From the NCBI RefSeq assembly GCF_030063365.1, contig NZ_JASISY010000001.1:1-64000 (forward strand): DNA of 64,000 bases, in the 5' to 3' direction. Under the pieces are notes generated by a model. It made no database searches. It worked only from the letters and a program-made list of their open reading frames with translations, and had not been told where the DNA came from. The position numbers and the translations under genes were made by a program. Below are positions 36,839 through 59,548 of the stretch, piece by piece (positions within the stretch are counted from its first letter, which is position 1; each line of letters starts with the position of its first letter). Source of the stretch: Cryobacterium sp. PH29-G1 (GTDB lineage Bacteria > Actinomycetota > Actinomycetes > Actinomycetales > Microbacteriaceae).

Positions 36839-37028
36839 AAGAAATGGCGGGTAGGGGCTGGGGGAGTCGGGCAAATGGGGGGAGGGGACGTAGACTCGCC
36901 TTCTACTGTTGTTTGTGACTAGTACGGGGGAGACCGTGTGGCGCCCCTGAGTGACACTTCGGCCCGATTCGAACACACCCCATGACGGCGTCCCGCGCGT
37001 GGCTGCCCAGGTTGAAAGGACCCGTCTG

Positions 37029-38626: not shown

Positions 38627-39772
38627 ATGGGCAGACGTCTCCCGTCAGCGCCGCCCATTTTGTCGGGCTACACCTATGTGCGCCCCCTCGGCACGGGCGG
38701 TTTCGCCGACGTCTTTCTGTTCGAACAGAACATGCCCCGCCGTTCTGTCGCCGTCAAGGTGCTGCTGCAGGACATCGTCGACGATGACGTGCTTCGCTCA
38801 TTCAATGCCGAAGCGGATGTCATGGCGCGGCTCAGCTCGCATCCGTCGATTCTCACCGTGTACAACGCGAGCATCTCGGCCGACGGTCGCCCGTACCTCG
38901 TCATGGAGTACTGCCCGGGGTCGTACTCCTCGCGCGAGCGCGCGGAGCCGATTTCCCTGGCGACCGGACTCAACGTTGCCGTGAGGATCGCCTGCGCCCT
39001 TGAGACTGCGCACCGGTCCAAGGTGCTGCATCGCGATATCAAACCCTCCAACATCCTCACCACCACCTTCGGCGGCCCCGTGCTGGGCGACTTCGGTATC
39101 GCCGCGTCCCTCGCCGGCGGTGCTCGCAACGAACTCTTCGCTATGTCGTTGCCGTGGAGCGCGCCCGAAGTCGTCGACGAGCGCACCACCGGCACGGTCG
39201 CGACCGAGGTCTGGTCGTTCGGTGCCACCCTGTACTCCCTGCTGTCCGATCGGGCCCCGTTCGAACTTCCGGCGGGTTCCTCCGGTTCCCGCGCGCAGCT
39301 GCAACAACGCATCGGTCGCGCGAAATACACCAGCATCGGGCGAGCGGATGTGCCGTCCTCGCTCGAAAATGTGCTCGCTCGCATGATGAGTCGCGACCCG
39401 GCCGCACGCCAGGTGAGCCTGCTCGAATGCGCCTACGATCTGCAGCGCGTGGAGCGCGACCTGGGCCTGCCCGTCACCGCGCTGGAGGTGGCCGACGAAG
39501 CCTGGGCATCCGCTGGAGCGCCCGTCGATTTTGACAATCAGGAGGCGCGCGGCCCCGTCATCTCCGATGTCATCCTGCCCACCCTGCGCCCCGGCGGGCG
39601 TGCTAGCGCCCGGCGCCCGGCAGCGCAGGCCCGCGACGAAGCGCTGCCCGATTCGAGCGAGGCCCGACGAGCGCGACTGTCCCCGCTCGCGCTCGGTCTG
39701 CTCCTGATGGGGGCTGTCGTGGTCGGTGGCGGCGCCACGGTAGCTGCCCTGCTGCTGGCTGGACTGATCTGA
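38627..39772 (+). CDS. Transmembrane Ser/Thr protein kinase (Pkb2-like)
   Basis: A 381-residue Hanks-type kinase. Visible motifs are the glycine loop LGTGGFADVF (21-30), lysine K44 in VAVKVL, catalytic HRD at 135-137 (HRDIKPSN), DFG at 155-157 and APE in WSAPEVVD, so it should be active. After a juxtamembrane linker (residues about 285-345), a single membrane segment near 352-378 ends the protein; there is no PASTA or other outer domain. It begins the operon with the large FN3 protein, whose ATG overlaps its stop (TGATG). By context it corresponds to Pkb2 of the bifidobacterial PFNA cluster. Likely targets are the FHA and Pro-Asp-Glu proteins downstream. Confidence 0.93.
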   Translation: MGRRLPSAPPILSGYTYVRPLGTGGFADVFLFEQNMPRRSVAVKVLLQDIVDDDVLRSFNAEADVMARLSSHPSILTVYNASISADGRPYLVMEYCPGSYSSRERAEPISLATGLNVAVRIACALETAHRSKVLHRDIKPSNILTTTFGGPVLGDFGIAASLAGGARNELFAMSLPWSAPEVVDERTTGTVATEVWSFGATLYSLLSDRAPFELPAGSSGSRAQLQQRIGRAKYTSIGRADVPSSLENVLARMMSRDPAARQVSLLECAYDLQRVERDLGLPVTALEVADEAWASAGAPVDFDNQEARGPVISDVILPTLRPGGRASARRPAAQARDEALPDSSEARRARLSPLALGLLLMGAVVVGGGATVAALLLAGLI

Positions 39773-42700
39773 TGGCCGGTATTCGCGCCCGAAGGCGCCT
39801 GCGCGTGCTCGTGAAAGCACGACGCGGCGTGATTCGCATTGCGGCGGTCGCGATCGTCGGTGCGCTGCTGGCCACTGTGGCCATCGTCGTCGATGGGTTC
39901 GATGTGAAGCAGACGCCGGTCAACGCGAGTTCAATTTGGGCGCTGCAGAGCGGCACCGGCAACCGGTATGCCCGGATCAACACAGACCTGGGCGAACTCG
40001 ACACCGTGAAGACCGTGCCGGCGCCGAGCGAACTGGTGCAGACCGATTCCACCGTGCTGCTCTACGCACAAAACAACGAAAAGGTTGTCGACGTGAGCCT
40101 CGCGGCGCCGATCGACCTCGGCGACGACGCCACCGATTACGACAGCACGCCGGACGGCACCCGAACCATCGTGTCATCGGGCTCCTGGGTGGGCTATCTC
40201 ACCAGCACGGGCACGGTGTTCGCCGGTGCCGTCGATGCCACCACCGAGCCCCGCCCGGTGAACCCGTACGCCGACGATGAGGTCGTCAGGGGTGAAACCC
40301 CCCGCGCCTACCGCTCCGATGCCATCGCCATCACGCCCGAGGGGTTGCTCTACAGCTATTCCAGCGCGGCCGGAAGCGTGCTGCGGTATTCCATCGCGAA
40401 AGACAAGATTCAGGGCGAGGACATCGTCACCGACGGCCCGGCGGAGCCCGGAAGTCAGCTGAGCGTCGTCGGCGACAGCTGGGCGCTGCTGGCCGTGGCC
40501 GGAGATGAACTGTGGCTGGCCGGCCAGAGCAGACCGGTCGAAACGAAGATGAGCGAACTGGCCGTGCTGCAACGCCCGAGCAGCAGCGCCGACGACGTGT
40601 TCATTGCCGACCAGGCCGGCCTGGTTGCCTTTGCCCTCTCCGACGGCGCCCGCACCGCGCTCGTTGGTGATTCCGAGACGGTGCTCGGGGTGCCCGCCGC
40701 GCCAACGCCCTTTCACGGTGATCGCTACGCGGCCTGGCTGCCCGCGTCCGGCGCCGGAGGCACCCTGTTCAGCGAGGATTCCGGCGAATCCACGCTCAGT
40801 TATGGCGCGGTCGCTGCGACCGGTGACGCCGCTCCGGCGTTTCGCGCCAACGAATCCCTCCTGATCCTCAACGACACGCAGAGCGGATGGGTCTGGACCG
40901 TTCCCGACGGCGCCCTCGTCACCGGCTCCCAGGACTGGACCCTGGCCGAAGTCTCGGAACCCCAGCGCCAAGACAACGTTGACGTGGCCTCCGAGGTTGT
41001 CGAACCGAAGGCTCCCGTGGCGGTGGCCGATGCCTTCGGCGTGCGCATCGACCAGTTGGTGCGGCTGCCGGTACTGCTGAACGATCACGACGCCAACGAC
41101 GACGTGCTCAGCGTGATACCCGCCTCTGTCACCGGGCTCGACCCGTCATGGGGCACCGTCACCGTCACCGACCACAACCAGACCCTCGCGGTGCAGGTAG
41201 CCCCCGGCGCCAGTGGCACGGCAACCTTCAGCTACGCCATCACCGACGGCTCGCGCACCGACGGCCTCGATTCGTCGCCGGCCACGGTCACGCTCACCGT
41301 GCACAGCGACGACGTCAATTCTGCACCGGTCTGGTGCGGCACCGACGGTTGCCTGCAGGACTGGCCGGCCCCCGAGGTGCAACCGGGAGGCAGCGTCTCC
41401 GTTCCGGTGCTGACCGGCTGGGTCGATCCCGACGGCGACCCGATCTTCGTCGCATCCGCTGTCAACACCACCGATATCGGCTCGGTCAGTGTGACGCCCG
41501 CCGGAGTGCTCGTCTACAAACATCCCAACGCCGCCGAACAAGCCGCTCAGTCGGCCCCGATTCTGGTGCGCGTCTCGGACATTCACGGTGCCGCGACCGA
41601 GAAGGTGCTCACCGTCGCGGTCACGCCGACCCCACGGCTCACGGTCGAACCGTTCGCACTGGTCGCGTCGGTGAACGAGCACCTCACGGTGAACCCGGCC
41701 GAGTACGTCTCGGGCGCTGCCGGGCTCTACCGCATCACATCGGTCACGACCCCGTCGAGTGCCGAGGGGTCAACGGTGAGCAGCACCGCGAACGGCACCG
41801 CGTTCGACTTCGCCGCAACCGTCGTCGGAAACTACACGATCAGCCTCACGATCGCCGACGACGTGAGCGAAGTCGTGTCGCTCGTGCGCATTTCGGTGGT
41901 TTCAGCGGATGCCCAAGCGCTCACGACCTCCCCGGTGACGGTTTTCGTGCGGCCCAAGGCCGACACCAGCGTTGACGTCTTCACCGCCGTCTCCAACCCG
42001 GCCGGCCGGGTGCTGCTGCTCGGCGAAGCCATTCCCGAAACCGCTGTCGGCGCATCGCTCAGCGTCGACGTTGTGGGGCAGAACATTCTGCGCGTGCGCG
42101 GCTCCACCGCTGACGAACGGCCGGGAAAGCTCGGCACGGTGCGATACACAGTGTCCGACGGCACCGAAAACCCGTTGTACACCGTGCGCGGCGAGGCCAC
42201 CGTGTATCTGCTCGAGGCTTCCGTTCCGCAGGCACCGATCGCCATGAATGACAGTGTTTCCGTGCGCGTTGGCGCCCAAATCGACATTCCGGTGCTCGAC
42301 AACGACGTCGCTCCCGACGGCAACATCGTGATGCTCAACGCCGAGTCGGTGCAGAACCGCAGCGACCTGGGCCTCGCCTTTGCGGCCGGCGGCCAACTGC
42401 GCTATCTCGCCCCCGACGAACCGGGCAGCTACGAGCTGGCCTACAGCGTCTACACCGCCGGCGCGCCCGAACTCATCGACTCGGCCGTGGTCTCGGTCGA
42501 GGTGCTGGCTGACGGTGAGAACACCGCGCCCCAGCCGCACACGCTCTACGGCCGGGTGCTCTCGGGCGAAGCGATCGAGATTCCCTTTGACAGTTTCGGT
42601 ATCGATCCCGACGGTGACACCGTGGTGCTCGACCGAGTGCTCTCCCAGCCGGCGCGCGGAACGGCATCGATCAATGCCACCGGCGATGCCATCGTCTACT

Positions 42701-45700
42701 CCAGCCCCCTCGACTTTCACGGCGCCATCGAATTTGAGTACCGGGTGCGCGACACCGTCGGCGCCACCGGTCTGGCGCTCGTGCGCATCGGCGTTCTCGA
42801 CCAGCGCTCCAACCCGAGCCCGATCACGTTCAGCGACTACGTGGAGGTGCAGGCCGGCGCTGACAACCAGGTCGTGGTTTTTCCCGCCGCCAACGACATC
42901 GAACCCGGCGGCGGCAACCTCAGCCTGAGCCTGGTCACCCCCGACGCGCCGGCCGGCACTGCCGAGTTCGATGCCCTGGCGCAGCGCATCAGCTCCGTCA
43001 CCGACGATCGCGTCGTGTTCACCGCCGGCACAGAGCCGGGCCTGCTCACCTTCGTATACTCGGTGACCAACGCCAACGAGGATGTCGGTCAGGGCCTCAT
43101 CGTGGTCAAGGTGGTGCGCGCTTCCGTTCCCGACTACCCGGTCGTGATCGACACGACCCTGGCCCTCGACGAACGCGACGCGTTCCCCACAGGCATCGAT
43201 GTGGTCACCGACAAGGTCTCGTGGAACTCCGGCGACGTCGGTGGCCTCAGCCTCACCCTGTGGGGCAGTCATCCCGGCCTTGAGGTGTCGGGCTGGAAGA
43301 TCAGCGGCGATGTCCCCGACGGCGGTCTCCTCGCTCCGTTCGCCCTGACCGGACCGAACTTTCAGGGCGTCGTCGTGACCACTTACGGGTTTCTGCGCAT
43401 TCCGTCCAAGGATGCGATCATCGTCGCGCTCAAGAAGGGCAACGTCGACCAGAAAGTGCGTGAGGATGCCTCGGTCACCTTCGACCTGAAAAGCCTCGTG
43501 TCGATTCCGGCCGGAACGACCCTGGAACTGCAGCGCACGGGCATCCGCTCTTCGGGAGAGCGCCCCAACGCCACCTGCACCTTGGGTTCGGGTACTTCGG
43601 TTACCTACACTGCCGGGTCTGACGCACCGTGGACCGACTCCTGCACGGTGCCGGCGCGCATCGAGGGACAGGAGGACTACACCCAGCTCGTGGTGCCGGT
43701 CGTGGTCGAGCCGCTCGACCCGCAGCCGGAACTGCGCCCGGCGGCCCTGACCCAGAGCCCGGGATCCGATCCCGTTCGATACGACCTCAGCCATATGGTC
43801 GACTGGCAGGGTAAGGGGGCCGTGCCGGCGCTGACCTTCGCGATCGAGTTCGCTTCGGACCAGTTCACCGTGACCCAAAACGGCCCGATTCTGTCGATCG
43901 GTGTCGCCGATAACGCCGTGGCCGGTCGCGAGGCGGCCGTCACGGTGAGCCTGTCGAGCCACCGCGAGGCCGTGCCGGCGGTGCTGGCGCTCAAGGTCGG
44001 TCCGGCACCGAGCGAACTGCCCAAGGGGGGCACCGTCGCTTCGACCTGCACACAGTCGTCGGGGTCGAGCTGCTCCATTGCGGTCGTCGGCGCCCCCGGC
44101 GAGGTCAACCTCTACCGCAACACCCCACTCACACTGGTCTCCGTCACCGCCCCCAGCACCTGTGTCGGCGTATCGTTCACGGTCGAGAATTCGCGCAACG
44201 TACGCGCCACCTGGTCGGGCGATACCGCCGGCGGAGTCTGCGAAGCGAGCTTTGTCGTGCGCGACGCACAGGGCAAGCTCAGCGCCGGCAACCGCAACGG
44301 ATCGATCACCGTTGACCTGCAGGGCTACCCGAAAGCGCCCAACGCGGTAGGGCAGATCGCCTACGGCGACCACACCGTGACCCTGTCGGTGAAGCCCGGC
44401 GGCGCCAACGCCGCCTACCCGGCCTTGACCGGGTTCGCGTTGTACCGCGGCGGTGCCAAGGTGGCAAGCTGCGACACCTCGGGCAACTGCGGCGTGATTC
44501 GAACGACCGAGAACGGTCAGAAAGAGCAGTACGAAGCGAAGGCGGTGAATTCCGTCGGCGAATCGCGCACCGCAGTGAACGTCACGGCCTGGTCATATGC
44601 CACCCCGGGAATGGGACGCTTGGCCGCCGAACCGATTTTCCAGGAGGGCACCACGAGTGCCTCGACCGGCGCGGTCACCGTGACCATCGAGAACACCGAC
44701 CGCTCGACCAGGGGCTACAGCGTAAACGGCACAGAGAAATCCGTCACGATGCCGGGGAGCGGCAGGACCGAAGTCACCCTCGCCCTCGGTGTGGGAAAGC
44801 AGACCGTCACCGTGACCCCGTTGAGCCAGTTCGAGCGGCCGGCCGGATCAGGACCGACCGACCAGACCGAATCTATCGGTGTGCAGGTCGCGGGTTCGCC
44901 CGCGATCACGAGCGGCGGTTCGCTGAGCTCGCAGAACCGGTCGATCACCGTGGCTGGCACCGGGTTCAACTCGAATTCCAGCAAACTGCCGGTGCAGGTG
45001 CTCTACGTTGCTTCGCTGACCGAGGGCGCAACCTGCACGCTCACCCCGGCGGGCTTCACGCCGGAGGGGGCATCATCGTCGACAGACCCAGCGATCGGTG
45101 GCCTCACCAAGCACACCAAATACTTCGTGTCGATCTGTTATTCCAACGGCTACGGGGTCACCACAGCCAATGCCGGTTCGATCACCACGTGGGAACAACC
45201 AGCCGCTCCGGGCAACGGTACCTACAGGTATGACATGGCGGCACCAGCCGGTGGAAAATACCTCCTCACCAAGCCCACGTCGTCGACGCGCGTGCCCAGC
45301 GACTTTACGGCTGACTTCGACAACTTCACTGAGACCACCGGCTCGAGTGTTTTCGGCGCCGACCCCGGTATTCGCGTGCGGTACTGCACGACAACCGACT
45401 CCAGCCTGTGCAGTGACTGGTCAACCGTGGCGGCGGCCAATGCCGACCGCGCCTGGCAGGTGCGATACGCGGTCGCGGGCCTCAGCAACGCCGGCTGCGT
45501 GATCGGCGGCACCCTCGCGGTCGCCGTCGATGCGACATCAGCCGGACTCGCCGAGGCCGTTGTGACCGGCGCCGACTACTACGTGCCCGACTCGCAGGGC
45601 GGTCGCACCTGGGCGCACCGCAATGGAAACACCGTTCCCGCCGGCGCGACCCAGACCAAAAACGTGCAATGGACCCTCACCTGGACCGCCCCGCAGACCA

Positions 45701-45777
45701 GCGGTTTGGACCCGGCGTCGGGCACCACAACCTCCACGGCCGTCGTCTGCAGCGCCGCCACCGCACCGACGCCCTAA
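39772..45777 (+). CDS. Giant membrane-anchored Ig-like/FN3 domain protein (2001 aa)
   Basis: A 2001-residue protein with an N-terminal membrane segment (about residues 19-42, IRIAAVAIVGALLATVAIVV) and a huge extracytoplasmic part. Residues about 50-410 look like a propeller-like or repeat region. Several Ig-like/cadherin-like modules follow, recognised by PVAVADAFGVRIDQLVRLPV-type starts and LPVLLNDHDANDD or IPVLDNDVAPDGNI motifs. A fibronectin type III-like module is near 1519-1605 (GQIAYGDHTVTLSVKPGGAN and KEQYEAKAVNSVGESR). It is the FN3 component of the PFNA-like operon. In bifidobacteria the FN3 protein has been reported to bind a host cytokine; here adhesion or envelope sensing is a guess. 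No cell-wall sorting motif is visible. Confidence 0.88.
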   Translation: MAGIRARRRLRVLVKARRGVIRIAAVAIVGALLATVAIVVDGFDVKQTPVNASSIWALQSGTGNRYARINTDLGELDTVKTVPAPSELVQTDSTVLLYAQNNEKVVDVSLAAPIDLGDDATDYDSTPDGTRTIVSSGSWVGYLTSTGTVFAGAVDATTEPRPVNPYADDEVVRGETPRAYRSDAIAITPEGLLYSYSSAAGSVLRYSIAKDKIQGEDIVTDGPAEPGSQLSVVGDSWALLAVAGDELWLAGQSRPVETKMSELAVLQRPSSSADDVFIADQAGLVAFALSDGARTALVGDSETVLGVPAAPTPFHGDRYAAWLPASGAGGTLFSEDSGESTLSYGAVAATGDAAPAFRANESLLILNDTQSGWVWTVPDGALVTGSQDWTLAEVSEPQRQDNVDVASEVVEPKAPVAVADAFGVRIDQLVRLPVLLNDHDANDDVLSVIPASVTGLDPSWGTVTVTDHNQTLAVQVAPGASGTATFSYAITDGSRTDGLDSSPATVTLTVHSDDVNSAPVWCGTDGCLQDWPAPEVQPGGSVSVPVLTGWVDPDGDPIFVASAVNTTDIGSVSVTPAGVLVYKHPNAAEQAAQSAPILVRVSDIHGAATEKVLTVAVTPTPRLTVEPFALVASVNEHLTVNPAEYVSGAAGLYRITSVTTPSSAEGSTVSSTANGTAFDFAATVVGNYTISLTIADDVSEVVSLVRISVVSADAQALTTSPVTVFVRPKADTSVDVFTAVSNPAGRVLLLGEAIPETAVGASLSVDVVGQNILRVRGSTADERPGKLGTVRYTVSDGTENPLYTVRGEATVYLLEASVPQAPIAMNDSVSVRVGAQIDIPVLDNDVAPDGNIVMLNAESVQNRSDLGLAFAAGGQLRYLAPDEPGSYELAYSVYTAGAPELIDSAVVSVEVLADGENTAPQPHTLYGRVLSGEAIEIPFDSFGIDPDGDTVVLDRVLSQPARGTASINATGDAIVYSSPLDFHGAIEFEYRVRDTVGATGLALVRIGVLDQRSNPSPITFSDYVEVQAGADNQVVVFPAANDIEPGGGNLSLSLVTPDAPAGTAEFDALAQRISSVTDDRVVFTAGTEPGLLTFVYSVTNANEDVGQGLIVVKVVRASVPDYPVVIDTTLALDERDAFPTGIDVVTDKVSWNSGDVGGLSLTLWGSHPGLEVSGWKISGDVPDGGLLAPFALTGPNFQGVVVTTYGFLRIPSKDAIIVALKKGNVDQKVREDASVTFDLKSLVSIPAGTTLELQRTGIRSSGERPNATCTLGSGTSVTYTAGSDAPWTDSCTVPARIEGQEDYTQLVVPVVVEPLDPQPELRPAALTQSPGSDPVRYDLSHMVDWQGKGAVPALTFAIEFASDQFTVTQNGPILSIGVADNAVAGREAAVTVSLSSHREAVPAVLALKVGPAPSELPKGGTVASTCTQSSGSSCSIAVVGAPGEVNLYRNTPLTLVSVTAPSTCVGVSFTVENSRNVRATWSGDTAGGVCEASFVVRDAQGKLSAGNRNGSITVDLQGYPKAPNAVGQIAYGDHTVTLSVKPGGANAAYPALTGFALYRGGAKVASCDTSGNCGVIRTTENGQKEQYEAKAVNSVGESRTAVNVTAWSYATPGMGRLAAEPIFQEGTTSASTGAVTVTIENTDRSTRGYSVNGTEKSVTMPGSGRTEVTLALGVGKQTVTVTPLSQFERPAGSGPTDQTESIGVQVAGSPAITSGGSLSSQNRSITVAGTGFNSNSSKLPVQVLYVASLTEGATCTLTPAGFTPEGASSSTDPAIGGLTKHTKYFVSICYSNGYGVTTANAGSITTWEQPAAPGNGTYRYDMAAPAGGKYLLTKPTSSTRVPSDFTADFDNFTETTGSSVFGADPGIRVRYCTTTDSSLCSDWSTVAAANADRAWQVRYAVAGLSNAGCVIGGTLAVAVDATSAGLAEAVVTGADYYVPDSQGGRTWAHRNGNTVPAGATQTKNVQWTLTWTAPQTSGLDPASGTTTSTAVVCSAATAPTP

Positions 45778-45826
45778 TTTTTCGCCCCACCGATCACACC
45801 TTCGCCAGACCGAAAGAGCCACGCAC

Positions 45827-46792
45827 ATGACAATCACCACGGAGCAGTCAGACTGGTTTTCCGCGACCTTCACGATGATGGTCGACAACGTTGAACGCGT
45901 CGTTCTGGGTAAGCGCCACGTGATCGAGCTCGCTTTCACCGCGATGGTCAGCGAAGGACATCTGTTGCTCGAGGACTATCCGGGCACCGGAAAGACCTCG
46001 CTTGCTCGCGCCATGTCGCAGACCGTGCAGGGCGTCTCCACCCGCATCCAGTTCACCCCCGACCTGTTGCCCGGTGACGTGACCGGAATCACCGTCTACG
46101 ACCAGAAAACCGGCGAGTTCGAATTTCACAGCGGACCGATCTTCGCCAACGTCGTGCTCGCCGACGAGATCAACCGCGCCAGCCCGAAGACCCAGTCGGC
46201 ACTGCTCGAAGCGATGGAAGAGGGCAACGTCACCGTCGACGGCGTAACCCGATCCACCGGCGTGCCCTTTCTGGTCATCGCCACCCAGAACCCGATCGAG
46301 CAGGCCGGAACCTACCGGCTGCCGGAAGCCCAGCTCGACCGGTTCATGATGAAGGCTTCGCTCGGCTACCCCGACCTCGCTGCGACCATCCGCATTCTCG
46401 AGGGCACCGCCGATGTGCGCCACGACCTCGACCCGGTCATCACACCGCAGGCGCTCGTGAGCATGAGCGACGTTGCCCGTGGCGTGTTCGTCAACCCCCT
46501 CGTCTATGACTACATCGGCCGCCTGGTCGAGGCCACGCGGCTGGCCCGTCAGGTGCGCATGGGCGTTAGCGTGCGGGGCGCCCGCGCTCTCACCAAGGCG
46601 GCCAAAACCTGGGCGGTGGCCCACGGCCGCACCTTCGTCACCCCCGATGACGTCAAGGCCCTGGCCGAACAGGTGCTCACGCACCGCATGGTGCTCGACC
46701 CGGAGGCGGAGTTCGACGGCGTCACCGCGAGCGCCGTGATCGGCCAGATTCTGCTCGACGTCGTACCGCCCAGTCGGAGCGACTTGGCGTGA
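45827..46792 (+). CDS. MoxR family AAA ATPase
   Basis: A 321-residue MoxR-type AAA+ ATPase. Walker A is EDYPGTGKTS (49-58), Walker B is VVLADEINRASPKTQSALLEAMEE, sensor 1 is FLVIATQNPIEQAG and sensor 2 is GVSVRGARAL. MoxR proteins act as chaperones that assemble or activate partner complexes, often with DUF58 and transglutaminase-like membrane proteins, just the genes next to it. The GTG start of the DUF58 gene overlaps its stop by 4 bp, so the two are translationally coupled. The ribosome-binding site (AAAGAG) is weak. Confidence 0.95.
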   Translation: MTITTEQSDWFSATFTMMVDNVERVVLGKRHVIELAFTAMVSEGHLLLEDYPGTGKTSLARAMSQTVQGVSTRIQFTPDLLPGDVTGITVYDQKTGEFEFHSGPIFANVVLADEINRASPKTQSALLEAMEEGNVTVDGVTRSTGVPFLVIATQNPIEQAGTYRLPEAQLDRFMMKASLGYPDLAATIRILEGTADVRHDLDPVITPQALVSMSDVARGVFVNPLVYDYIGRLVEATRLARQVRMGVSVRGARALTKAAKTWAVAHGRTFVTPDDVKALAEQVLTHRMVLDPEAEFDGVTASAVIGQILLDVVPPSRSDLA

Positions 46793-48195
46793 GCTTTCAC
46801 ACCGAATCGCGGCGCGCACTGACATCGACTCAGTCGCGCACCTCAACCCAGACCCGGTCTGCCACGCATACCCGGTATTCGACGACCCACACGAACTTCT
46901 CCGGGCGCACCCGCGCCTCGAAGACGTCGATTCTCGTGGGCGCGGTCGTGCTCTGGATGCGCGTGTCGCGCACGGTGCGAAACGGTGTGCAGGCATCCGT
47001 CGCATGGGTCGGAGAAACGGTCACCCCGGCCGGCTGGGTTGTGGTCGCCGCCGCGATCGTGCTGCTGCCGCTCGGCCTGGTGCTCGGCTGGACCGAACTG
47101 ATCGTGACTGGCTGGGTGGCGGTCGCCCTTATTCTGATCTCGCTGCCATTTCTGGCCGGCGGGCGCGCCTATAGCGTCAACTTCGTGCTGCCGTTCGACC
47201 GGATCGTTGCCGGGTCCGAGGTGCTCGGCACCCTCACCGTCACCAACGTTTCCAAGCGGCTCGAGCTGCCCGGTCGCGTTGACGTTCCCATCGGCGAGGG
47301 ACTAGCGGATGTTTACGTGCCGCTACTGCGTTCCGGCCAGGTTCACGAAGAGCAGGTGCGCGTGCCCGCCTACCGCCGCGGAATCATCGATGTGGGCCCG
47401 GTCACGACCGTGCGCAGCGACCCGCTCGGCGTGCTCGGGCGTGAAGTGGCCTGGGCCGATGTCAACCGCCTGTTCGTGCACCCGGTGACAGTGTCGATCC
47501 CCAGCACCAGCGCGGGTTTTGTGCGCGACCTCGAAGGAAACCCGACGAGCGACATCGTTGATTCTGACATCTCGTTTCACGCTATTCGCGAGTATGCCCC
47601 GGGCGACGGACAGCGACACATCCATTGGAAGTCCACCGCGAAGACCGGCAAGCTCATGGTGCGGCAGTTCGAAGAGAGCCGTCGCTCGCGTCTGGCGATC
47701 GTCTTGAGCCGGAACGCGGCGGAGTACGCCTCCGCTGACGAATTCGAGATGGCGGTCAGCGCAGCGGGCTCGCTCGGTGTGCGTGCCATTCGCGATGGCC
47801 GTGACCTGGCCGTTGTGGCCAGTGCCGAGATTCCCGATATCGTGCGCGGCAGCATCCGTTCGGTGCGCAGCCTCAGCGTGGTGTCGACGCGCACCCTGCT
47901 CGACGAACTGACCGCGATCGAGGTCAGCCCGCACGCTATGAACGTCGAAGACGTTTGTGTGCTTGCGGCGCAGGTGGTGCCCGACCTGTCGATCGCCTTT
48001 GTCGTGTGCGGCTCGACGATGACCGCCAGGCGCCTGCAGGCACTCGCACTGAAATTTGCCGACAATGTGCAGGTCGTGGCCGTTCTGTGCAACCCCGATG
48101 AGCAGCCGAGCTTTCGTGATCTCGCCGGCACGAGCGTGCTCACCATCGGCGTGCTCGATGATTTTCGTTCCCTACTGAGCCGGCGAGCGTCATGA
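46789..48195 (+). CDS. DUF58 domain membrane protein
   Basis: A 468-residue protein. A Ser/Thr/Arg-rich N-terminal stretch of about 47 residues comes first, unusual for the family. Two adjacent membrane segments (about 80-125) follow, then a beta-rich part (VNFVLPFDRIVAGSEVLGTLTVTN). The DUF58 signature SDISFHAIREYAPGDGQRHIHWKSTAKTGKLMVRQFEE is at about 255-295, and a vWA-like C-terminal region follows. It partners MoxR ATPases in many bacteria. It overlaps the genes on both sides by 4 bp (GTGA and ATGA), so expression of the three is tightly coupled. Confidence 0.93.
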   Translation: MSFHTESRRALTSTQSRTSTQTRSATHTRYSTTHTNFSGRTRASKTSILVGAVVLWMRVSRTVRNGVQASVAWVGETVTPAGWVVVAAAIVLLPLGLVLGWTELIVTGWVAVALILISLPFLAGGRAYSVNFVLPFDRIVAGSEVLGTLTVTNVSKRLELPGRVDVPIGEGLADVYVPLLRSGQVHEEQVRVPAYRRGIIDVGPVTTVRSDPLGVLGREVAWADVNRLFVHPVTVSIPSTSAGFVRDLEGNPTSDIVDSDISFHAIREYAPGDGQRHIHWKSTAKTGKLMVRQFEESRRSRLAIVLSRNAAEYASADEFEMAVSAAGSLGVRAIRDGRDLAVVASAEIPDIVRGSIRSVRSLSVVSTRTLLDELTAIEVSPHAMNVEDVCVLAAQVVPDLSIAFVVCGSTMTARRLQALALKFADNVQVVAVLCNPDEQPSFRDLAGTSVLTIGVLDDFRSLLSRRAS

Positions 48196-50855
48196 GCGCG
48201 CCCGAAACGCCCGTGTCGCGGGGGACGAGTCGCCCCGCGACCGGATCGATCCGCCTGACCCGGCCGCGCCGGGCGCCCGGCGGCCGTCGCCGTGCCCTCG
48301 TGATCAACGCTCTGTTCCTGGTGGCGATGATGCTCGTGGCCGTCTGGGCCGCCTGGCCGATCTACCAGGACGTGAGCTACCTGATCATGGCGGGTGGAGC
48401 GATCACGGCCGGACTAGCACTGGCCTGGCTCGGTGCGCGGCGAGGTTGGTCGTGGTTCACCGTGCTGCTGGTGACCCTCGGCGCCTACTTGCTGTTGGGC
48501 GTGCCGCTCGCGGCGCCGACCGCGCTCACGAGCGTGCCGACTGCGTTCGGCGGATTGCTCGATCTGGTGACCGCCACGGTGTTCAGCTGGAAAGAACTCG
48601 TCACGATCCAACTACCGGTCGGGTCGTACCAGACCCTGCTCGTGCCGGCCTTTTTCTTGTTTCTTGGCGGCACCACGCTCGCCCTGTCGCTGGCCTGGCG
48701 CGGCGGCCGACTCTATGCGCTCGCGGTTCCCCTCCTCTTTGCCGTGCAGCTGTTCGGCCTGGTGTTCGGCTCCAGCGCCGTGAGCGTTCCGGTGACCGTG
48801 CTCGGCGTCAGCGTGGCGGCACCGCGCGAAAGCCTGATCGGTCTGGCCGCTCTGCTGCTCGGCTTCGGGTTTCTGGCCTGGCGCACCCACCTCGCGCGCA
48901 CCGCGGCGCTCAATTTGGCGGCACGCAACAGCGGAGTGCGACGCACTCGAGGTGGCCTGGGCGGTCGAGTGCGCCGGGCAGCGCTCGCCGGGGGAGTGCT
49001 CGTGCTCGCTATCGGAGTCACCCTCGGTGGCCTGTCGATGGTTACCGCCAGCCCGACCCGCGAGGTGCTGCGCACCAGCATCGACCCGACCGTCGAGCTG
49101 CGCGAGTATGTCAGCCCGCTCAGCCAGTACCGCAGTTATTTCAGCGCCGATCGGTACAACACCGAACTGTTCACGGTAACCACCGACGCTGGGGCGGACG
49201 ACAGGGCGTCGCGCGTGCGCCTCGCCGTACTCAGCTACTACGACGGCGAGGTCTTTCGGGTCGTGAACCCCGCTGCGGGGCAGAGCGACCAATCCACCGC
49301 TTTTGCCCGGGTACCGCACGCGCGCGGTGCCGGCGCCGACCGCACCACGACCACATTTGAGATCGCCGGGTATTCCGGCGTGTGGCTGCCGGGGACCGTG
49401 GCGCTGTCGAGCATCCGCTTTGCCGGTGATCGCGGCTCAGTACTCAGCGACGGATTTTTCTACAACGCGGGCACGGCATCCGGCATTGCGCTCAACCCCC
49501 TCACAAGCGGCGATCGCTATACGATTCTCGCGCCGCAGCAAGCGGATGCGACGGACCTGGCCGGTCTCGCCAGCCCGACCGGTGATTCGATGGATGATTC
49601 GATCGGCGATTCGGCTGGTGATTCGATCGGCGACTCTGTGATTCCGCAGAGTCTGGTCGACTGGGTCGACGCCCAGGCGGTGACCCGGGACGGGGCCGGG
49701 CTGGCCGAACTCGTGACGCGGCTGCGCGAGCGCGGCTATCTCAGCCACGCCCTGACCGTGCCGGCCGCAAACTCCTGGACCACCGACCTGGCCGGCTATC
49801 AGTTCTCGCCGAGCCTGTCCGGGCACTCGGTGGCACGAATCGACGACCTATTCACCGCGCTGCTCGACAAACAAAACAGCACGACCGCCACTGAGAACTC
49901 CCAGTTGGTGGCGGCGATCGGTGATGACGAACAATTCGCTGTCGCCGCGGCACTGCTCGCCCGCCAGCTCGGGTTCACCTCCCGGGTGGTGGTGGGGTTT
50001 GCTCTCGGTGCGGATGAAACCACCGGTTCGGCTGCGCCCGGTGCCTGCCAGCAGGGCGTCTGCTCCGGTCGAAATATCGAGGCCTGGGTGGAAGTGTCCA
50101 GCGGCGATGATCGCTGGGTCACCGTCGACGCGACCCCGCAGTTTCAGAACGCGTTGTCGCCCATCGACGACCTCACCCGCGACCCGCAGTACAACACCGA
50201 GGTCATCGTCGAGGGCGCCGCCGAGCAGCGCGCGCCGGAGGCTAACCCGGCCAGCGGAGAAGACCAGCAGGAGCAGGAAGCGGACAGCGGCCCCGACCTG
50301 GCCTGGCTGTTTACGATCCTCAAGATCGGGGGCATCAGCCTGGCCGTGCTGATGGCGATCAGCACGCCCTTTCTGGTCATTCTGGGAGCAAAACTGGCGC
50401 GTCGACGCGCCAGAGGGCGCTCCGTTGACCCGGCGGCCCGGGTTGCCGGCGGCTGGGACGAATACATCGACGCCGCTGTTGACCGTGGCCTCGCCGATCA
50501 AGGCACCATGACGCGGATCGAGATCGCGTCGCACTACCAATCGGTCGGCGGCGCTCAACTCGCCAGACTCGCTGACCAAGCCATCTTCGGTCCGATCCCT
50601 CCGCACGTCTCGGAGAGCGATGCCTTCTGGGCACTCGTCACTGCCGAACGTGCCGGCCTCGCCGCGAGCGGTACCCGGTGGCAACGCCTGCGCGCCGCTG
50701 TCTCGCTGCGTTCCTTTTCTCGGCTGGTTGATGCCCGCCGACTCTTCACTTTTCGACCCAGCGCAACTAGACGCGACGTCACCATCGCGCGCCCGAACCG
50801 GCGCGACACCAGCAGATTGGGGGAGCGGCCGCCTACCAGCGGACGCGAATCATAA
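48192..50855 (+). CDS. Transglutaminase-like (TgpA-type) membrane protein with degenerate catalytic residues
   Basis: An 887-residue protein with about seven membrane segments in residues 35-300, an extracytoplasmic part to about 690, one more membrane segment near 700-730 and a cytosolic C-terminus. The transglutaminase-like fold is at about 570-650. At the place of the catalytic Cys (normally GxCxxFA) it reads GDDEQFA (577-583, D579). The His of HAWVE is E630 (EAWVE). Only the Asp (D646, VDATP) is kept. It therefore probably lacks transglutaminase or protease activity. A short repeat (DDSIGDSAGDSIGDS) lies in an outer loop. It is the TGM component of the PFNA-like operon. Confidence 0.9.
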   Translation: MSAPETPVSRGTSRPATGSIRLTRPRRAPGGRRRALVINALFLVAMMLVAVWAAWPIYQDVSYLIMAGGAITAGLALAWLGARRGWSWFTVLLVTLGAYLLLGVPLAAPTALTSVPTAFGGLLDLVTATVFSWKELVTIQLPVGSYQTLLVPAFFLFLGGTTLALSLAWRGGRLYALAVPLLFAVQLFGLVFGSSAVSVPVTVLGVSVAAPRESLIGLAALLLGFGFLAWRTHLARTAALNLAARNSGVRRTRGGLGGRVRRAALAGGVLVLAIGVTLGGLSMVTASPTREVLRTSIDPTVELREYVSPLSQYRSYFSADRYNTELFTVTTDAGADDRASRVRLAVLSYYDGEVFRVVNPAAGQSDQSTAFARVPHARGAGADRTTTTFEIAGYSGVWLPGTVALSSIRFAGDRGSVLSDGFFYNAGTASGIALNPLTSGDRYTILAPQQADATDLAGLASPTGDSMDDSIGDSAGDSIGDSVIPQSLVDWVDAQAVTRDGAGLAELVTRLRERGYLSHALTVPAANSWTTDLAGYQFSPSLSGHSVARIDDLFTALLDKQNSTTATENSQLVAAIGDDEQFAVAAALLARQLGFTSRVVVGFALGADETTGSAAPGACQQGVCSGRNIEAWVEVSSGDDRWVTVDATPQFQNALSPIDDLTRDPQYNTEVIVEGAAEQRAPEANPASGEDQQEQEADSGPDLAWLFTILKIGGISLAVLMAISTPFLVILGAKLARRRARGRSVDPAARVAGGWDEYIDAAVDRGLADQGTMTRIEIASHYQSVGGAQLARLADQAIFGPIPPHVSESDAFWALVTAERAGLAASGTRWQRLRAAVSLRSFSRLVDARRLFTFRPSATRRDVTIARPNRRDTSRLGERPPTSGRES

Positions 50856-52343
50856 ATGTATGAATCATCTGGAGTGTTGATCTCGGTCATCGTGGTGGCA
50901 GTGCTGCTCGGCATCGGCGGGTACGTGTTCTCGTCGATCGCGCTCGGCAAGACGTTTGTCAAGCTCGGGGAACAAGCGTGGAAGGGCTGGGTGCCGGTCG
51001 TAAACACGATCACCGTGTTGGAACTCGGTCGCTATTCGGCGCTGTGGGTCATTGGTCTCCTCATTCCTGTCGCGAACCTCGTTGCCCTGGTCGTCTTCAT
51101 CATGGCGGTCAATAACGTCAACCGACGATTGGGTTATGGCGGTGGATTCACGGTGCTCTATCTGCTCGTCTATCCGATCTGGGTCGGCATTCTCGGGTTC
51201 GGAAATTCTGTGGATACCGGCTGGCTGCCCGCAACGGCTGCCACCGGGTATGTTCCGTTTGCACCGGTCGCCCCGCAGCCGTGGGCACCGCAGCCGGCAG
51301 CGCCGCAGTATGTAGCCGCACAGCCTGCAGCACCGCATTCGACAACGCAGCAGTCAGCAGAACAGCCGATCGCCGCGTTTGCGCCCATGCCGCCGGTTCC
51401 CCCCGCCACGCGCGCTGCCGCACCGCTGCCCCCAGCACCGGCCGCCGCGGTTCCGGTTCCGGTTGCGGCGCCGGCAGTGCGCGATCGGCCCGTCGGACCG
51501 CCGCCGTTCTACGTGAGCGCCCCGCCGATTGCTGCGGTAGCGCCTGCTCCGCCTACGCCGCCAGCCCCGCCGGTCGTTTCAGTGCCCCCGGCTCCATCCG
51601 CACCCCCGGCACCCCCGGCACCCCCAGCACCCCCAGCCCCGGTCGTTTCAGTGCCGCCGGCTCCGCCCGCACCCCCGGCACCGCCAGCACTCCCAGCCCC
51701 GGTCGTTTCAGCGCCGCCGGCACCGCCTGTGGTTTCAGCACCGCCTGCCCTACCTGCCTTTCCCACGCCGGTCGATTCGGCCCCGCAGGCACCGCCTGTT
51801 TCGTCGGCCCCGCCCGCACCACCGACACCGCCCGCACCACCGGTACCCCCCGCGGAAACGCAGGCTGCGTTCGCGGCACCGTTCGCGGCACCGTTCGCGG
51901 CACCGACTGCGGCACCGACTGCGCCACCGACTGCGGCACCCCCGACACCAGACGCCGACAGCCCAGCTTCCGAGGACGACTTCGATGAGACCATGATCGT
52001 GGTGCGTCGCATGAGGCCGTGGACTCTGGAAACCGAACATGGCCTGAAGATTTCGCTCACCAAACCGGTCGTGCTGCTGGGACGCAACCCCGCGCGGGGC
52101 GACGCGCATCCGGAAGCGCAGTTGGTTTTGCTGCCCGACCCCGGCAAGACGGTCTCGAAAACGCACGCTCGCCTCGACTTTGTCGAGGGCGCCTGGGGAA
52201 TTCGTGATCTGCAGTCGACCAACGGTGTTGTCCTCATCGACGGCGGTGGCATCGAGAACGAACTCGATGCGGGTGCCAGCGCGGCCTTGACCGACCGATT
52301 CCTGCTCGGCGAGCTCGCGGCGCGCATCTATCTGGAGGCCTGA
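50856..52343 (+). CDS. Membrane protein with Pro/Ala-rich linker and FHA domain
   Basis: A 495-residue protein. Residues 1-130 hold about four membrane helices of the type of small DUF5684-like proteins (FVKLGEQAWKGWVPVVNTITVLELG). A very long Pro/Ala-rich linker follows (about 135-370, PAPPAPPAP-like repeats). The FHA domain at about 395-495 has VVLLGRNP, the phosphothreonine-binding KTVSKTHARL and DLQSTNGVVL. Just before it stands DDFDETMIVVRRMRPW, which resembles the pT docking motif found also in the gene at 53199. FHA domains bind phosphothreonine peptides, so this protein probably reads the kinase signal. It starts directly after the previous stop. Confidence 0.9.
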   Translation: MYESSGVLISVIVVAVLLGIGGYVFSSIALGKTFVKLGEQAWKGWVPVVNTITVLELGRYSALWVIGLLIPVANLVALVVFIMAVNNVNRRLGYGGGFTVLYLLVYPIWVGILGFGNSVDTGWLPATAATGYVPFAPVAPQPWAPQPAAPQYVAAQPAAPHSTTQQSAEQPIAAFAPMPPVPPATRAAAPLPPAPAAAVPVPVAAPAVRDRPVGPPPFYVSAPPIAAVAPAPPTPPAPPVVSVPPAPSAPPAPPAPPAPPAPVVSVPPAPPAPPAPPALPAPVVSAPPAPPVVSAPPALPAFPTPVDSAPQAPPVSSAPPAPPTPPAPPVPPAETQAAFAAPFAAPFAAPTAAPTAPPTAAPPTPDADSPASEDDFDETMIVVRRMRPWTLETEHGLKISLTKPVVLLGRNPARGDAHPEAQLVLLPDPGKTVSKTHARLDFVEGAWGIRDLQSTNGVVLIDGGGIENELDAGASAALTDRFLLGELAARIYLEA

Positions 52344-52345
52344 CT

Positions 52346-53212
52346 ATGAGTGAGGCGGCCGAGCGGCGATCTACGAGTTCCGGGGTGTCGCTGCGCTGCG
52401 GTTTTCGCACCGACGTTGGTCACAAGCGGAACGAGAACGAAGACTCCCTGCTGGCGGAGGCGCCGGTGTTCATCGTCGCTGATGGAATGGGCGGACTCGA
52501 AGCCGGACACCGCGCCAGCGCTGCGGTCATCGCCGAGTTTCAGAGCTGCGTTGCCCGCAGCGGCGTGCCGGCCGGAGACGTCGTGGCGGCGGTCGAACGC
52601 GCCCATACCGGGGTTGGTGCCGTCTCGGATTCGACCGTTCGTGGCGCTGGGAGCACGCTGACCGGCGTGGTGCTCATCGATCACGAAGATTCGCCGCAGT
52701 GGCTCATCATGAACGTGGGCGACTCCCGCGTCTACCGTCTGCACGGTGGAGAATTCCACCAGCTCACCGTGGATCATTCCCTCGCCCAGGAACTCATCGA
52801 CGCGGGGTCGCTGCTGAAAGCGGATATCGCCACCTTCGCCCGCAAAAACGTCATCACCCGGGCCATGGGTGCACAGAACAGCACCGCGGACTATTGGCTG
52901 CGTCCGGTCATTACCGGCGAACGCCTGCTCGTGTGCTCCGACGGGCTCAGTGGCGAACTCTCCGATGAGGCCATCAAGGCCGGTCTGACGCTCGGCGGCA
53001 CCACGCAACAAACGGCCGACCTGCTGCTCGCCGGCGCCCTCGAACACGGCGGCCGCGACAATATTTCGCTGATCGTGATCGATGTCATCGCCGGCGGGGT
53101 CGGTTCGTGGCACGGCATTTCGTTCGACGGTGACGACCAGTCGGACACCATCGATACCCGCAACGACGATACTCGACCGGTGAAACGCGGGGGCCGCAAT
53201 GCCGCCGAGTGA
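52346..53212 (+). CDS. PP2C-type protein phosphatase (PrpC-like)
   Basis: A 288-residue Ser/Thr phosphatase. Metal-binding motifs are RTDVGHKRNENEDS (first Asp and Glu), VFIVADGMGG (about 47-56), GSTLTGVVL and the C-terminal LLVCSDGLSGELSDEAI and HGGRDNISLIVIDVI. All key aspartates are present, so it should be active and reverse the kinase. It is cytosolic. GGAGG lies 9 bases before the ATG and two bases separate it from the FHA gene. It overlaps the next gene by 14 bp. Confidence 0.95.
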   Translation: MSEAAERRSTSSGVSLRCGFRTDVGHKRNENEDSLLAEAPVFIVADGMGGLEAGHRASAAVIAEFQSCVARSGVPAGDVVAAVERAHTGVGAVSDSTVRGAGSTLTGVVLIDHEDSPQWLIMNVGDSRVYRLHGGEFHQLTVDHSLAQELIDAGSLLKADIATFARKNVITRAMGAQNSTADYWLRPVITGERLLVCSDGLSGELSDEAIKAGLTLGGTTQQTADLLLAGALEHGGRDNISLIVIDVIAGGVGSWHGISFDGDDQSDTIDTRNDDTRPVKRGGRNAAE

Positions 53213-53918
53213 TCCGGCCCGGGTGCCAGACAAGCCAGACGAGCCAGACGAGCCAGACGAGCCAGACGAGCCAGACGAGCCAGACGAGCCCGACGAGCCC
53301 GACGAGCCCGACGAGCCCGACGAGCCCGACGAGCCCGACGAACCTGACGACGATGACACGCGCATCGTACGGCGCGAGAGTGAAGAACACACCCGCGTCG
53401 TGGTGCGCAGCACTGATGACAACACTCAACGTGCGGCACGGCCGAGGCGGCAAACCCTCACCGGAACGGCCTCGAAACCAGAACGTGACACCGCGTCGGC
53501 AGGCTCCGACTCCTGCGATGAGACCGCGGATGAGGCCACAGTGCGGTCCTCGAGGGGAAGCTCCGCCGACGATACGCGACTCAGCACGGCACGGGCGGCC
53601 GCGTCAGCGCCCACTCCCGTGGTCGATGCGCTGCAACGCCGGTATGAGCCGCCATCGATGCCGAGCGGGGGGAGTGTGCGCTATGCCGCCCGGCCCACAC
53701 CGGCGATCGTTGAGCCGAAGGTGCCGGCGAGCGTGACCGATTCGGTGCCGGATCTGGCCCGCATCCGTTTGGCCGATGCGGCCGCCGAGATTCGCCGGCG
53801 GGCGGCGGCAACGGCCCGTCGCCGGCGCCGACTCACCCTGGTCGCGATCATCTCGAGCACCGTAGTGGTGTTGCTCGCCGCCGCAGCGTTCGTCGTCTTC
53901 ATCGTTTTCAACTGGTGA
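53199..53918 (+). CDS. Pro-Asp-Glu repeat protein with C-terminal membrane anchor
   Basis: A 239-residue protein. The N-terminus has 14 Pro-Asp-X units (12 of them PDE), encoded by a 9-bp minisatellite. DDDTRIVRR and EEHTRVVVR follow directly. Both carry a threonine in a T-x-(I/V)-V context like the motif before the FHA domain of the neighbour, and could be kinase targets bound by FHA. A low-complexity middle part leads to a basic RRRAAATARRRRR stretch and a single membrane segment at the C-terminus (about 213-238). The topology is thus cytosolic with a tail anchor. I do not recognise a family. It overlaps the phosphatase gene by 14 bp. Confidence 0.82.
   Translation: MPPSDPARVPDKPDEPDEPDEPDEPDEPDEPDEPDEPDEPDEPDEPDEPDDDDTRIVRRESEEHTRVVVRSTDDNTQRAARPRRQTLTGTASKPERDTASAGSDSCDETADEATVRSSRGSSADDTRLSTARAAASAPTPVVDALQRRYEPPSMPSGGSVRYAARPTPAIVEPKVPASVTDSVPDLARIRLADAAAEIRRRAAATARRRRRLTLVAIISSTVVVLLAAAAFVVFIVFNW
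53226..53351 (+). repeat. 9-bp minisatellite, 14 units
   Basis: Fourteen 9-bp units encode Pro-Asp-Lys, 12 Pro-Asp-Glu and Pro-Asp-Asp. The first seven units use CCA for Pro, the next six use CCC and the last CCT, so the array grew in two blocks. The unit keeps the frame, so length changes would alter only the acidic arm. Confidence 0.95.
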
Positions 53919-59497: not shown

Positions 59498-59548
59498 CCG
59501 CGGCGTTCACGACGCGGTGGCGCAACGCCGCGGGGCGAGGCCCCCGCA

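Follow-up and report, generated by a model that had tools for sequence, protein, structure and literature searches.

In a 64,000-nucleotide stretch of the genome of the actinobacterium Cryobacterium sp. PH29-G1 (contig NZ_JASISY010000001.1, positions 1 to 64,000; hereinafter the window), three consecutive genes of a PFNA-type operon carry short threonine motifs of one kind, hereinafter tags. They code for a protein with an FHA domain (the FHA protein), a PP2C phosphatase and a predicted disordered, membrane-anchored protein (the third protein). As judged from sequence and structure models, the tags are short linear motifs that are conserved and lie where disorder is predicted, and they probably form a system in which a kinase writes, the FHA domain reads and the PP2C erases phosphothreonines on a membrane scaffold encoded by the operon.

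A threonine tag in three consecutive genes

An earlier note on this DNA had pointed to an acidic-T-x-(I/V)-V-Arg motif shared by the FHA protein and the protein with Pro-Asp-Glu repeats (the third protein), and all three of its peptides are indeed in frame: DDFDETMIVVRRM in the FHA open reading frame (ORF) at 50856-52343 (threonine codon 51990-51992, T379), and DDDTRIVRR (53358-53360, T54) and EEHTRVVVR (53391-53393, T65) in the third ORF at 53199-53918. A fourth tag that the note did not contain, NDDTRPVKR, lies near the end of the PP2C (53171-53173, T276), in a tail predicted to be disordered. Scanning the stop-to-stop ORFs of at least 80 amino acids on both strands of the window with [DE]2-x(0-2)-T-x-[IVPLM]-V-x(0-2)-[RK], a pattern written with the earlier peptides in view, we recovered four matches, all in these three abutting or overlapping genes. 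Genome-wide (3.8 Mb in 31 contigs, 99.93% complete), two DNA patterns for the strict form acidic-T-x-[IVM]-V-x-R gave 4 + 4 matches at seven distinct sites, as against 1 + 1 and 0 + 0 for the backwards patterns. Three of the seven belong to the FHA and third genes; among the remaining four, the ORF that holds the site is the longest there for one (L206, DDTYVVLR, HolA-like by eye), and for three a longer ORF runs antisense to the frame. By eye, the third protein has two weaker look-alikes as well, DEATVRSSR and DDTRLSTAR (the DDTR of the second also appears in the motif scan).

The FHA domain next to tag 1 has the equipment of a phosphothreonine binder: the phosphate-binding residues G25, R26, S50, H53, T71, N72 and G73 are invariant in all 39 FHA sequences compared, and a fold comparison of its model with known FHA domains gave Z-scores of 11.2 to 14.1 among the matches listed. 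Its nearest named relatives are from Cryobacterium, followed by Glaciihabitans, Homoserinimonas and Leifsonia. We collected 54 loci (21 from Cryobacterium and 33 from 23 other genera) and took in each the nearest threonine with at least two acidic residues in the preceding five and I/V/L/F at +2; such a site precedes the FHA domain in 49 of the 54 (window included), and in all 49 it lies 27-30 residues before the [LIV]-x-G-R motif. The Pro/Ala-rich linker further ahead is, by eye, not conserved. In the AlphaFold2 model (49 sequences), residues 5-17 have a predicted local distance difference test score (pLDDT) below 50; the tag threonine is residue 13 and the first FHA strand starts at residue 23, ten residues on. 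This low score, together with the recurrence of the tag in proteins that have no FHA domain, rules the tag out as a strand of the FHA fold. T-x-[VI]-x windows within the FHA domain itself (L102, L112 and L116) were discarded as false by ending the scan 12 residues before the GR motif, after which L112 retained a site further upstream. In this genome, T-T-x-[I/L] stretches also precede the FHA domains of two further proteins (L005 and L006, with NDTTIIAR and ATTRLTPP), and self-tagging of this kind may, by sequence, be more general among actinobacterial FHA proteins.

The tag recurs in the third protein, for which no Pfam family scored over the cut-off (window protein and six relatives) and no NCBIfam family did so either (window protein and three relatives). 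A profile built from 44 unique FHA sites alone, run on ORFs of at least 60 amino acids in six frames of the 54 loci, gave 138 matches, spread over 37 loci, in forward ORFs whose start lies at most 3 kb downstream of the FHA gene; ten shuffles gave a mean of 1.5, which rules out composition alone as the cause of the tags. The same profile had no match in 192,779 amino acids of ORFs labelled as kinase, Ig, MoxR, DUF58, TgpA or LRV, two in PP2C ORFs, nine in 729,577 amino acids of antisense ORFs (4.7 when shuffled) and 11 in 454,322 amino acids of other forward ORFs, eight of the 11 being in third-gene ORFs (L089, L105, L110). Another of the 11, of 13.1 bits, is the single match of an Ig-sized ORF not labelled as Ig (L084). 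A single third ORF with 2 to 14 scored tags is present in 35 of the 54 loci, the highest counts being 14 in L100, 12 in L109, 10 in L103 and 8 in L079, and some of these proteins have more by eye. All but one of the 35 have a hydrophobic segment at most nine residues from the C-terminus, the exception (L110) being cut by the end of its locus. The Pro-Asp-Glu repeat was weighed as an important feature of this protein and rejected: 16 other third ORFs from Cryobacterium, compared with it, show a longest Pro-Asp-Glu run of 0 or 1, by which the repeat is strain-specific, and the linker length of the protein likewise looks strain-variable from the sequences.

With any residue allowed at the centre of the profile, the 35 third ORFs gave 146 windows, of which 136 were centred on threonine and none on serine; the other ten comprise nine one-residue shifts from a threonine tag and one odd window. 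Serine and threonine are about equally frequent in these proteins (7.5% and 7.2% of residues). The FHA ORFs gave 51 threonine-centred windows and 19 others, namely 15 one-residue shifts and four within a strand of the FHA domain itself, of which one has serine at its centre (L110). Restriction to threonine is what a phosphothreonine reader of the FHA type imposes, and kinases often tolerate serine in place of threonine. Among 140 copies in third proteins, position -2 is Asp/Glu in 137, +2 is Ile/Val/Phe/Leu/Met in 133, +5 is Arg in 133, and +3 is Val in 103, Ser in 20, Thr in 10 and Ala in 4. Since -2, +2 and +5 are more constant than +3, the motif, as read from these copies, exceeds the plain +3 code of FHA domains. 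The earlier note had invoked the +3 preference of FHA domains; the T-x-I-V core is that of a crystallised FHA ligand (PMC6733907).

At +2 and +3, the FHA site is also closer to the tags of the third protein encoded beside it than to those of other loci. With 19 loci, left after thinning out similar FHA sites, as good a resemblance arose in 5 of 3000 permutations at +2 and in 18 of 3000 at +3, with +1 borderline (219 of 3000) and nothing at -1, +4, +5 or +6; in L109, for example, both proteins have Phe at +2. In tag positions 85% of the single-nucleotide differences between copies are synonymous, as against 30-36% in the spacers, figures that are partly circular, the copies having been chosen by a threonine-centred profile, and that we do not count as evidence.

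Loose PP2C catalytic motifs were found in all 39 loci checked, L092, L104, L113 and L116 having been left out beforehand. In the model the PP2C core is folded and its last 32 residues (257-288) have pLDDT below 50. The motif T-x-[P/E/Q/K/I]-[V/L/I], a pattern chosen after the tails had been seen, is present in the tails of 35 of 42 loci (L092 dropped; shuffled mean 2.5, maximum 7) and, once 15 Cryobacterium loci are set aside, in 20 of 27 (shuffled mean 1.7, maximum 5). This tail tag is a class of its own, whose constant feature is an aliphatic residue at +3. In L084 the PP2C ORF begins about 1.6 kb past the FHA stop codon, behind the multi-tag ORF, and its tail has no tag.

Table 1. Features of the operon, in positions of the window
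Feature	Position	Strand	Basis
Ser/Thr protein kinase (pkb2 position), candidate writer	38627..39772	+	Pfam Pkinase 9.9e-40; HRD, DFG, VAVK; syntenic in relatives
2001-amino-acid protein, Ig/cadherin-like by sequence reading, at the place of fn3 in PFNA	39772..45777	+	ORF; syntenic in relatives
MoxR-type AAA+ ATPase ORF, named by sequence reading	45623..46792	+	57-97% identical in relatives where found
DUF58-type protein, named by sequence reading	46789..48195	+	ORF; served as operon probe
Transglutaminase-like membrane protein (TgpA/Tgm)	48192..50855	+	Pfam Transglut_core 2e-9
FHA protein: DUF5684 part, long Pro/Ala linker, tag, FHA domain	50856..52343	+	Pfam DUF5684 9.1e-12, FHA 1.6e-6
Tag 1, EDDFDETMIVVR	51972..52007	+	Motif scan; AlphaFold2 pLDDT <50; site kept in relatives
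FHA domain, all-beta fold, canonical G-R, S, H, T-N-G	52020..52334	+	AlphaFold2 pLDDT ~91; Pfam FHA over cut-off
PP2C phosphatase, candidate eraser	52346..53212	+	Pfam PP2C_2 1.7e-9; catalytic motifs; AlphaFold2 core mostly >90
Tag 2, DDTRPVKR, PP2C tail	53165..53188	+	Motif scan; tail residues 257-288 pLDDT <50
Third protein: disordered by sequence, tag-bearing, C-terminal membrane segment	53199..53918	+	No Pfam family; multi-tag ORF in relatives
Pro-Asp-Glu array: 9-bp tandem repeat, 14 copies, 96% matches	53225..53350	+	Tandem-repeat analysis
Tag 3, DDDTRIVRR, third protein	53349..53375	+	Motif scan; strict genome patterns; relatives
Tag 4, EEHTRVVVR, third protein	53382..53408	+	Motif scan; strict genome pattern; relatives
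C-terminal membrane segment of third protein, after basic RRRRR	53847..53903	+	Hydropathy 2.77 over 19 residues, 4 from C-terminus
LRV-domain gene after third gene	53995 (start)		Pfam LRV_2

A proposed phosphothreonine scaffold and its competitors

We propose that the cytoplasmic side of the operon products would be organised by one tag, acidic-x-T-x-[I/V]-V-x-R. The tag threonine would be phosphorylated by a Ser/Thr kinase, with the operon's own membrane-anchored enzyme as the likeliest candidate, whereupon the FHA domain of the FHA/DUF5684 protein could bind the phosphorylated tags on the third protein, those of neighbouring FHA-protein copies in trans, and that of the PP2C tail. The third protein would act as a disordered multi-tag chain with its C-terminus fixed in the membrane; because each chain has several tags, the assembly would be multivalent and would cluster at the membrane. 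The PP2C, recruited by its own tag, may then strip the phosphates and dissolve the assembly, which in its turn would act on the MoxR/DUF58/transglutaminase machinery. Writer, reader and tags are plausibly at the same membrane face because of the C-terminal hydrophobic segments of the kinase and the third protein and the DUF5684 part of the FHA protein, which reads as its membrane part. The earlier suggestion that the FHA domain links the two proteins gains from the conserved, predicted disordered tags that both have in common beside a canonical FHA domain, with threonine and not serine at their centre. The kinase at 38627, which the earlier note named as the one that phosphorylates these threonines, stays a candidate writer. 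The accompanying suggestion that the PP2C resets the switch survives in altered form: its eraser role stays a candidate one, and with a tag in its own tail the enzyme may be more than an eraser.

Several observations weigh against this proposal. The query by which the loci were collected (window 51960-52340) itself held the tag and so favours tag-bearing FHA genes, and the FHA-site rule demands a threonine and two preceding acidic residues, both of which bias the 49 of 54; even so, five loci have no tag before the FHA domain (L086, L102, L105, L115, L116). A third ORF with at least two scored copies is lacking in 19 of the 54 loci, and copies that share a third protein do not count as independent. 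Seven of the 42 PP2C tails have no tail tag, and L077 has the third gene and no PP2C in the 20 kb taken. An antisense ORF of 365 amino acids exceeds the third gene (244 amino acids) in the window; we accepted the frame of the latter because it is conserved in relatives, not for its length. The covariation test leaves shared ancestry in. We know of no FHA requirement for the near-constant Arg at +5 (133 of 140 copies), which could reflect another reader, or recognition by the kinase or the phosphatase. We found no phosphorylation or binding data for the proteins of the operon.

One alternative is that the tags are docking or substrate sites of the kinase, whose phosphorylation would alter charge or disorder without binding by the FHA domain, which would have other partners. 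The greater constancy of the acidic -2 and of the +5 Arg relative to +3 suits such sites, and +5 lies outside the span of -3 to +3 annotated for FHA ligands in the text available from PMC6733907. We nevertheless consider this alternative unlikely: the third-protein copies have threonine and never serine (136 to 0), as an FHA reader demands, the tags adjoin an FHA domain and covary with its own tag at +2 and +3, and their T-x-I-V core is that of the FHA ligand solved in the same paper.

Quite improbable, in our estimate, is a switch in cis of the GarA/OdhI kind, in which the FHA domain would take up the phosphothreonine of its own chain and the third protein would compete for the groove. It has precedents in GarA, whose ETTS site in an unstructured extension self-binds the FHA domain (PMC5448819), and in Bdellovibrio DgcB, for which the authors expect binding of the tail in cis, T14 preceding an FHA domain that starts at about residue 33, the chain of the bound tail being unassigned (PMC6733907, both as far as the accessible text goes). 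In the present model, the threonine stands only ten residues before the first strand, so that fold-back, which the earlier note had also entertained, looks sterically unlikely and becomes doubtful; this gap appears too short for a groove at the far end of the domain, a judgement from general knowledge of FHA domains and not from a measured distance, and AlphaFold2 places the tag at pLDDT below 50 only. Going by the model, binding in trans is likelier than fold-back. A non-phosphorylated structural or charge motif, with acidic and basic patches packing unmodified on the membrane or a partner, would suit third proteins rich in acidic and basic residues, many of them ending in a basic stretch and a membrane segment, but is very improbable given the composition-preserving shuffles (1.5 versus 138 matches) and an invariant threonine that has no role in it.

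Extending the proposal of kinase-written, FHA-read and PP2C-erased tags, we suggest tentatively, as something possible rather than probable, that the third proteins constitute an undescribed family of tail-anchored disordered chains with two to a dozen-plus FHA-ligand tags, which, with a tagged FHA protein and a tagged PP2C, form a phosphorylation-controlled membrane condensate gating the MoxR/DUF58/transglutaminase machine that PFNA-type operons encode. The newest element would be this apparently undescribed family of multi-tag membrane proteins; among titles and the openings of abstracts, we found no description of it or of the tag. If the proposal is true, it would represent a bacterial, multi-gene and multivalent phosphothreonine scaffold of short linear motifs, whose tag copy number changes freely between species, and it would allow FHA partners to be predicted purely by sequence.

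Comparison with known FHA-dependent systems

The closest precedent is the PFNA operon of Bifidobacterium, with the order pkb2, fn3, aaa-atp, duf58, tgm, prpC, gene 7 and fha, in which the MoxR ATPase is a substrate of Pkb2, gene 7 has no known function and the extracellular region of the kinase varies among species (all from the available part of PMC8430577). Both operons have the kinase-FN3/Ig-MoxR-DUF58-transglutaminase core with a phosphatase and an FHA protein. However, the 3′ end in the window runs FHA-PP2C-third-LRV rather than prpC-gene 7-fha, a PP2C and an FHA protein being present in the window in that other order, and the window kinase lacks an extracellular sensory region: its kinase domain is followed by a C-terminal membrane segment, at which the protein ends. 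Neither the tag nor a multi-tag third protein is mentioned in the portions of PMC8430577 and PMC6803598 at hand. PFNA-type operons are known from bifidobacteria (PMC8430577, same portion) and are present in many of the Microbacteriaceae examined here. We found nothing in the literature on how the PFNA kinase, FHA protein and phosphatase connect, or any role for the small adjoining gene; a shared, repeated FHA tag would supply the link between the three and could be tested with few peptides.

GarA and OdhI, likewise actinobacterial, have a phosphothreonine site in a disordered stretch N-terminal to the FHA domain, as the FHA protein of the window would (PMC5448819, available part). They differ in that GarA regulates metabolism and binds to itself, whereas here the same tag is also on other proteins, and in that the FHA protein of the window has 495 amino acids with a DUF5684 part and reads DETM rather than ETTS. 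Another FHA protein of this genome (L001, STDTTMNF) looks GarA-like by eye. In DgcB, a tail peptide, K(p)TSIVAS, was crystallised in the FHA cleft with the +3 Val in a pocket; its K-pT-S-I-V core matches the T-x-I-V of the tags, and the fold (6hc1) matches our model with Z-scores of 13.2-13.7, but DgcB is a diguanylate cyclase whose tag is described, in what is available of PMC6733907, on itself.

Rv1747 of Mycobacterium tuberculosis, with an FHA-linker-FHA arrangement, clusters when phosphorylated by PknF, and PstP reverses this (review PMC9312465, in part). Like the proposed scaffold, it combines FHA domains with phosphorylation at a membrane protein under kinase and phosphatase control, but all of this resides in one ABC transporter, whereas the system in the window is distributed among distinct genes, and scored tags number up to 14 among its relatives. 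Type VI secretion (PpkA, PppA, Fha/TagH, TssL) also pairs a kinase with an Fha protein that binds the phosphothreonine of a membrane component (PMC3953482, in part). The FHA protein scored 24.1 bits against TIGR03354 for TagH (cut-off 120.25) and 25.8 bits against NF049868 for FhaB, Rv0019c (cut-off 125), which places it outside both families.

Operon context and wider distribution

The window has the order kinase, Ig-like, MoxR, DUF58, transglutaminase-like, FHA/DUF5684, PP2C, third gene and LRV, by which the locus is a PFNA-type operon as far as sequence tells, its core order being present and its MoxR, DUF58 and Ig-like members named by reading. The true start of MoxR is probably downstream of 45623. 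The order kinase-Ig-MoxR-DUF58-TgpA-FHA recurs in 39 of the 54 loci (window included), a PP2C following the full order in 33, and MoxR-DUF58-TgpA-FHA in 43, several of the remainder being cut by contig ends. An orthologous TgpA gene (at least 55% identity) was found in 20 of 57 Cryobacterium genomes and an FHA gene (E <1e-40) in the same 20; the third gene was found by sequence in 19 of these, and the twentieth (G025, locus L078) has a two-tag ORF at that place. The FHA genes of L086 and L102 have no kinase-to-TgpA neighbours in the fetched region and also no tag; L081, L092, L094 and L107 have no MoxR-DUF58-TgpA run in that region and keep the tag. On either side of the operon in the window stand genes resembling those of type IV pili (PilT-, PilB- and PilC-like by reading, at 36951-38456 and 57776-62053), and an rpoC-like gene lies upstream (32757-36680).

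We searched 29 further loci with the tag profile. FHA-site and downstream copies recur in six loci of another family of the same order (L174-L178, L193), with, for example, an FHA site DDHTVIASRRR and, in L193, seven downstream copies such as DDHTVMSTRR; the L177 copies are carried by a long ORF that overlaps the FHA gene. Two loci belong to the family of the window: L190, with six copies downstream but without a scored FHA site, and L191, whose FHA site is accompanied by one further copy in an overlapping ORF. A single low-scoring site is present in the FHA ORFs of L179, L183 and L184 (9.4-9.7) and one low match elsewhere in L181; the low matches of L185 and L188 have no clear meaning, and there were none in L180, L182 or the remaining 13 loci. 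A profile search of 296 genomes of the class gave 30 loci, in which one of 17 outside the family has a scored FHA site (L130, 9.4 bits) and three of 13 inside it have none (L127, L133, L134). Four of the 29 further loci were also translated. In one, from a further family (L200), the PP2C, an LRV protein and the FHA protein follow the transglutaminase gene, the LRV gene thus standing between PP2C and FHA rather than after the third gene; there, the FHA domain is preceded by DSTVLS and the PP2C tail contains EDATLQT, both noted by eye. L199 has a look-alike in the PP2C tail alone (DDATVQT), the translated FHA protein of L202 has no tag-like site, and L195 has a look-alike neither at the FHA site nor in the PP2C tail.

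A second, rearranged operon was recovered in ten other Cryobacterium loci (L211-L220, all ten fetched), in the order FHA, PP2C, kinase, Ig, MoxR, DUF58, transglutaminase. Here the FHA protein itself has 2 to 8 matches to [DE]-x-T-[VIL]-[ILV] (overlapping count), with DDTVIRR-type tags in tandem in L219, and the multiple tagging thus seems, by sequence, to be placed on different proteins of related operons. The kinase ORF of this operon has a [DE]-x-x-[DE]-x-T-R-I-[TS] site in all ten loci, C-terminal to the kinase domain by position.

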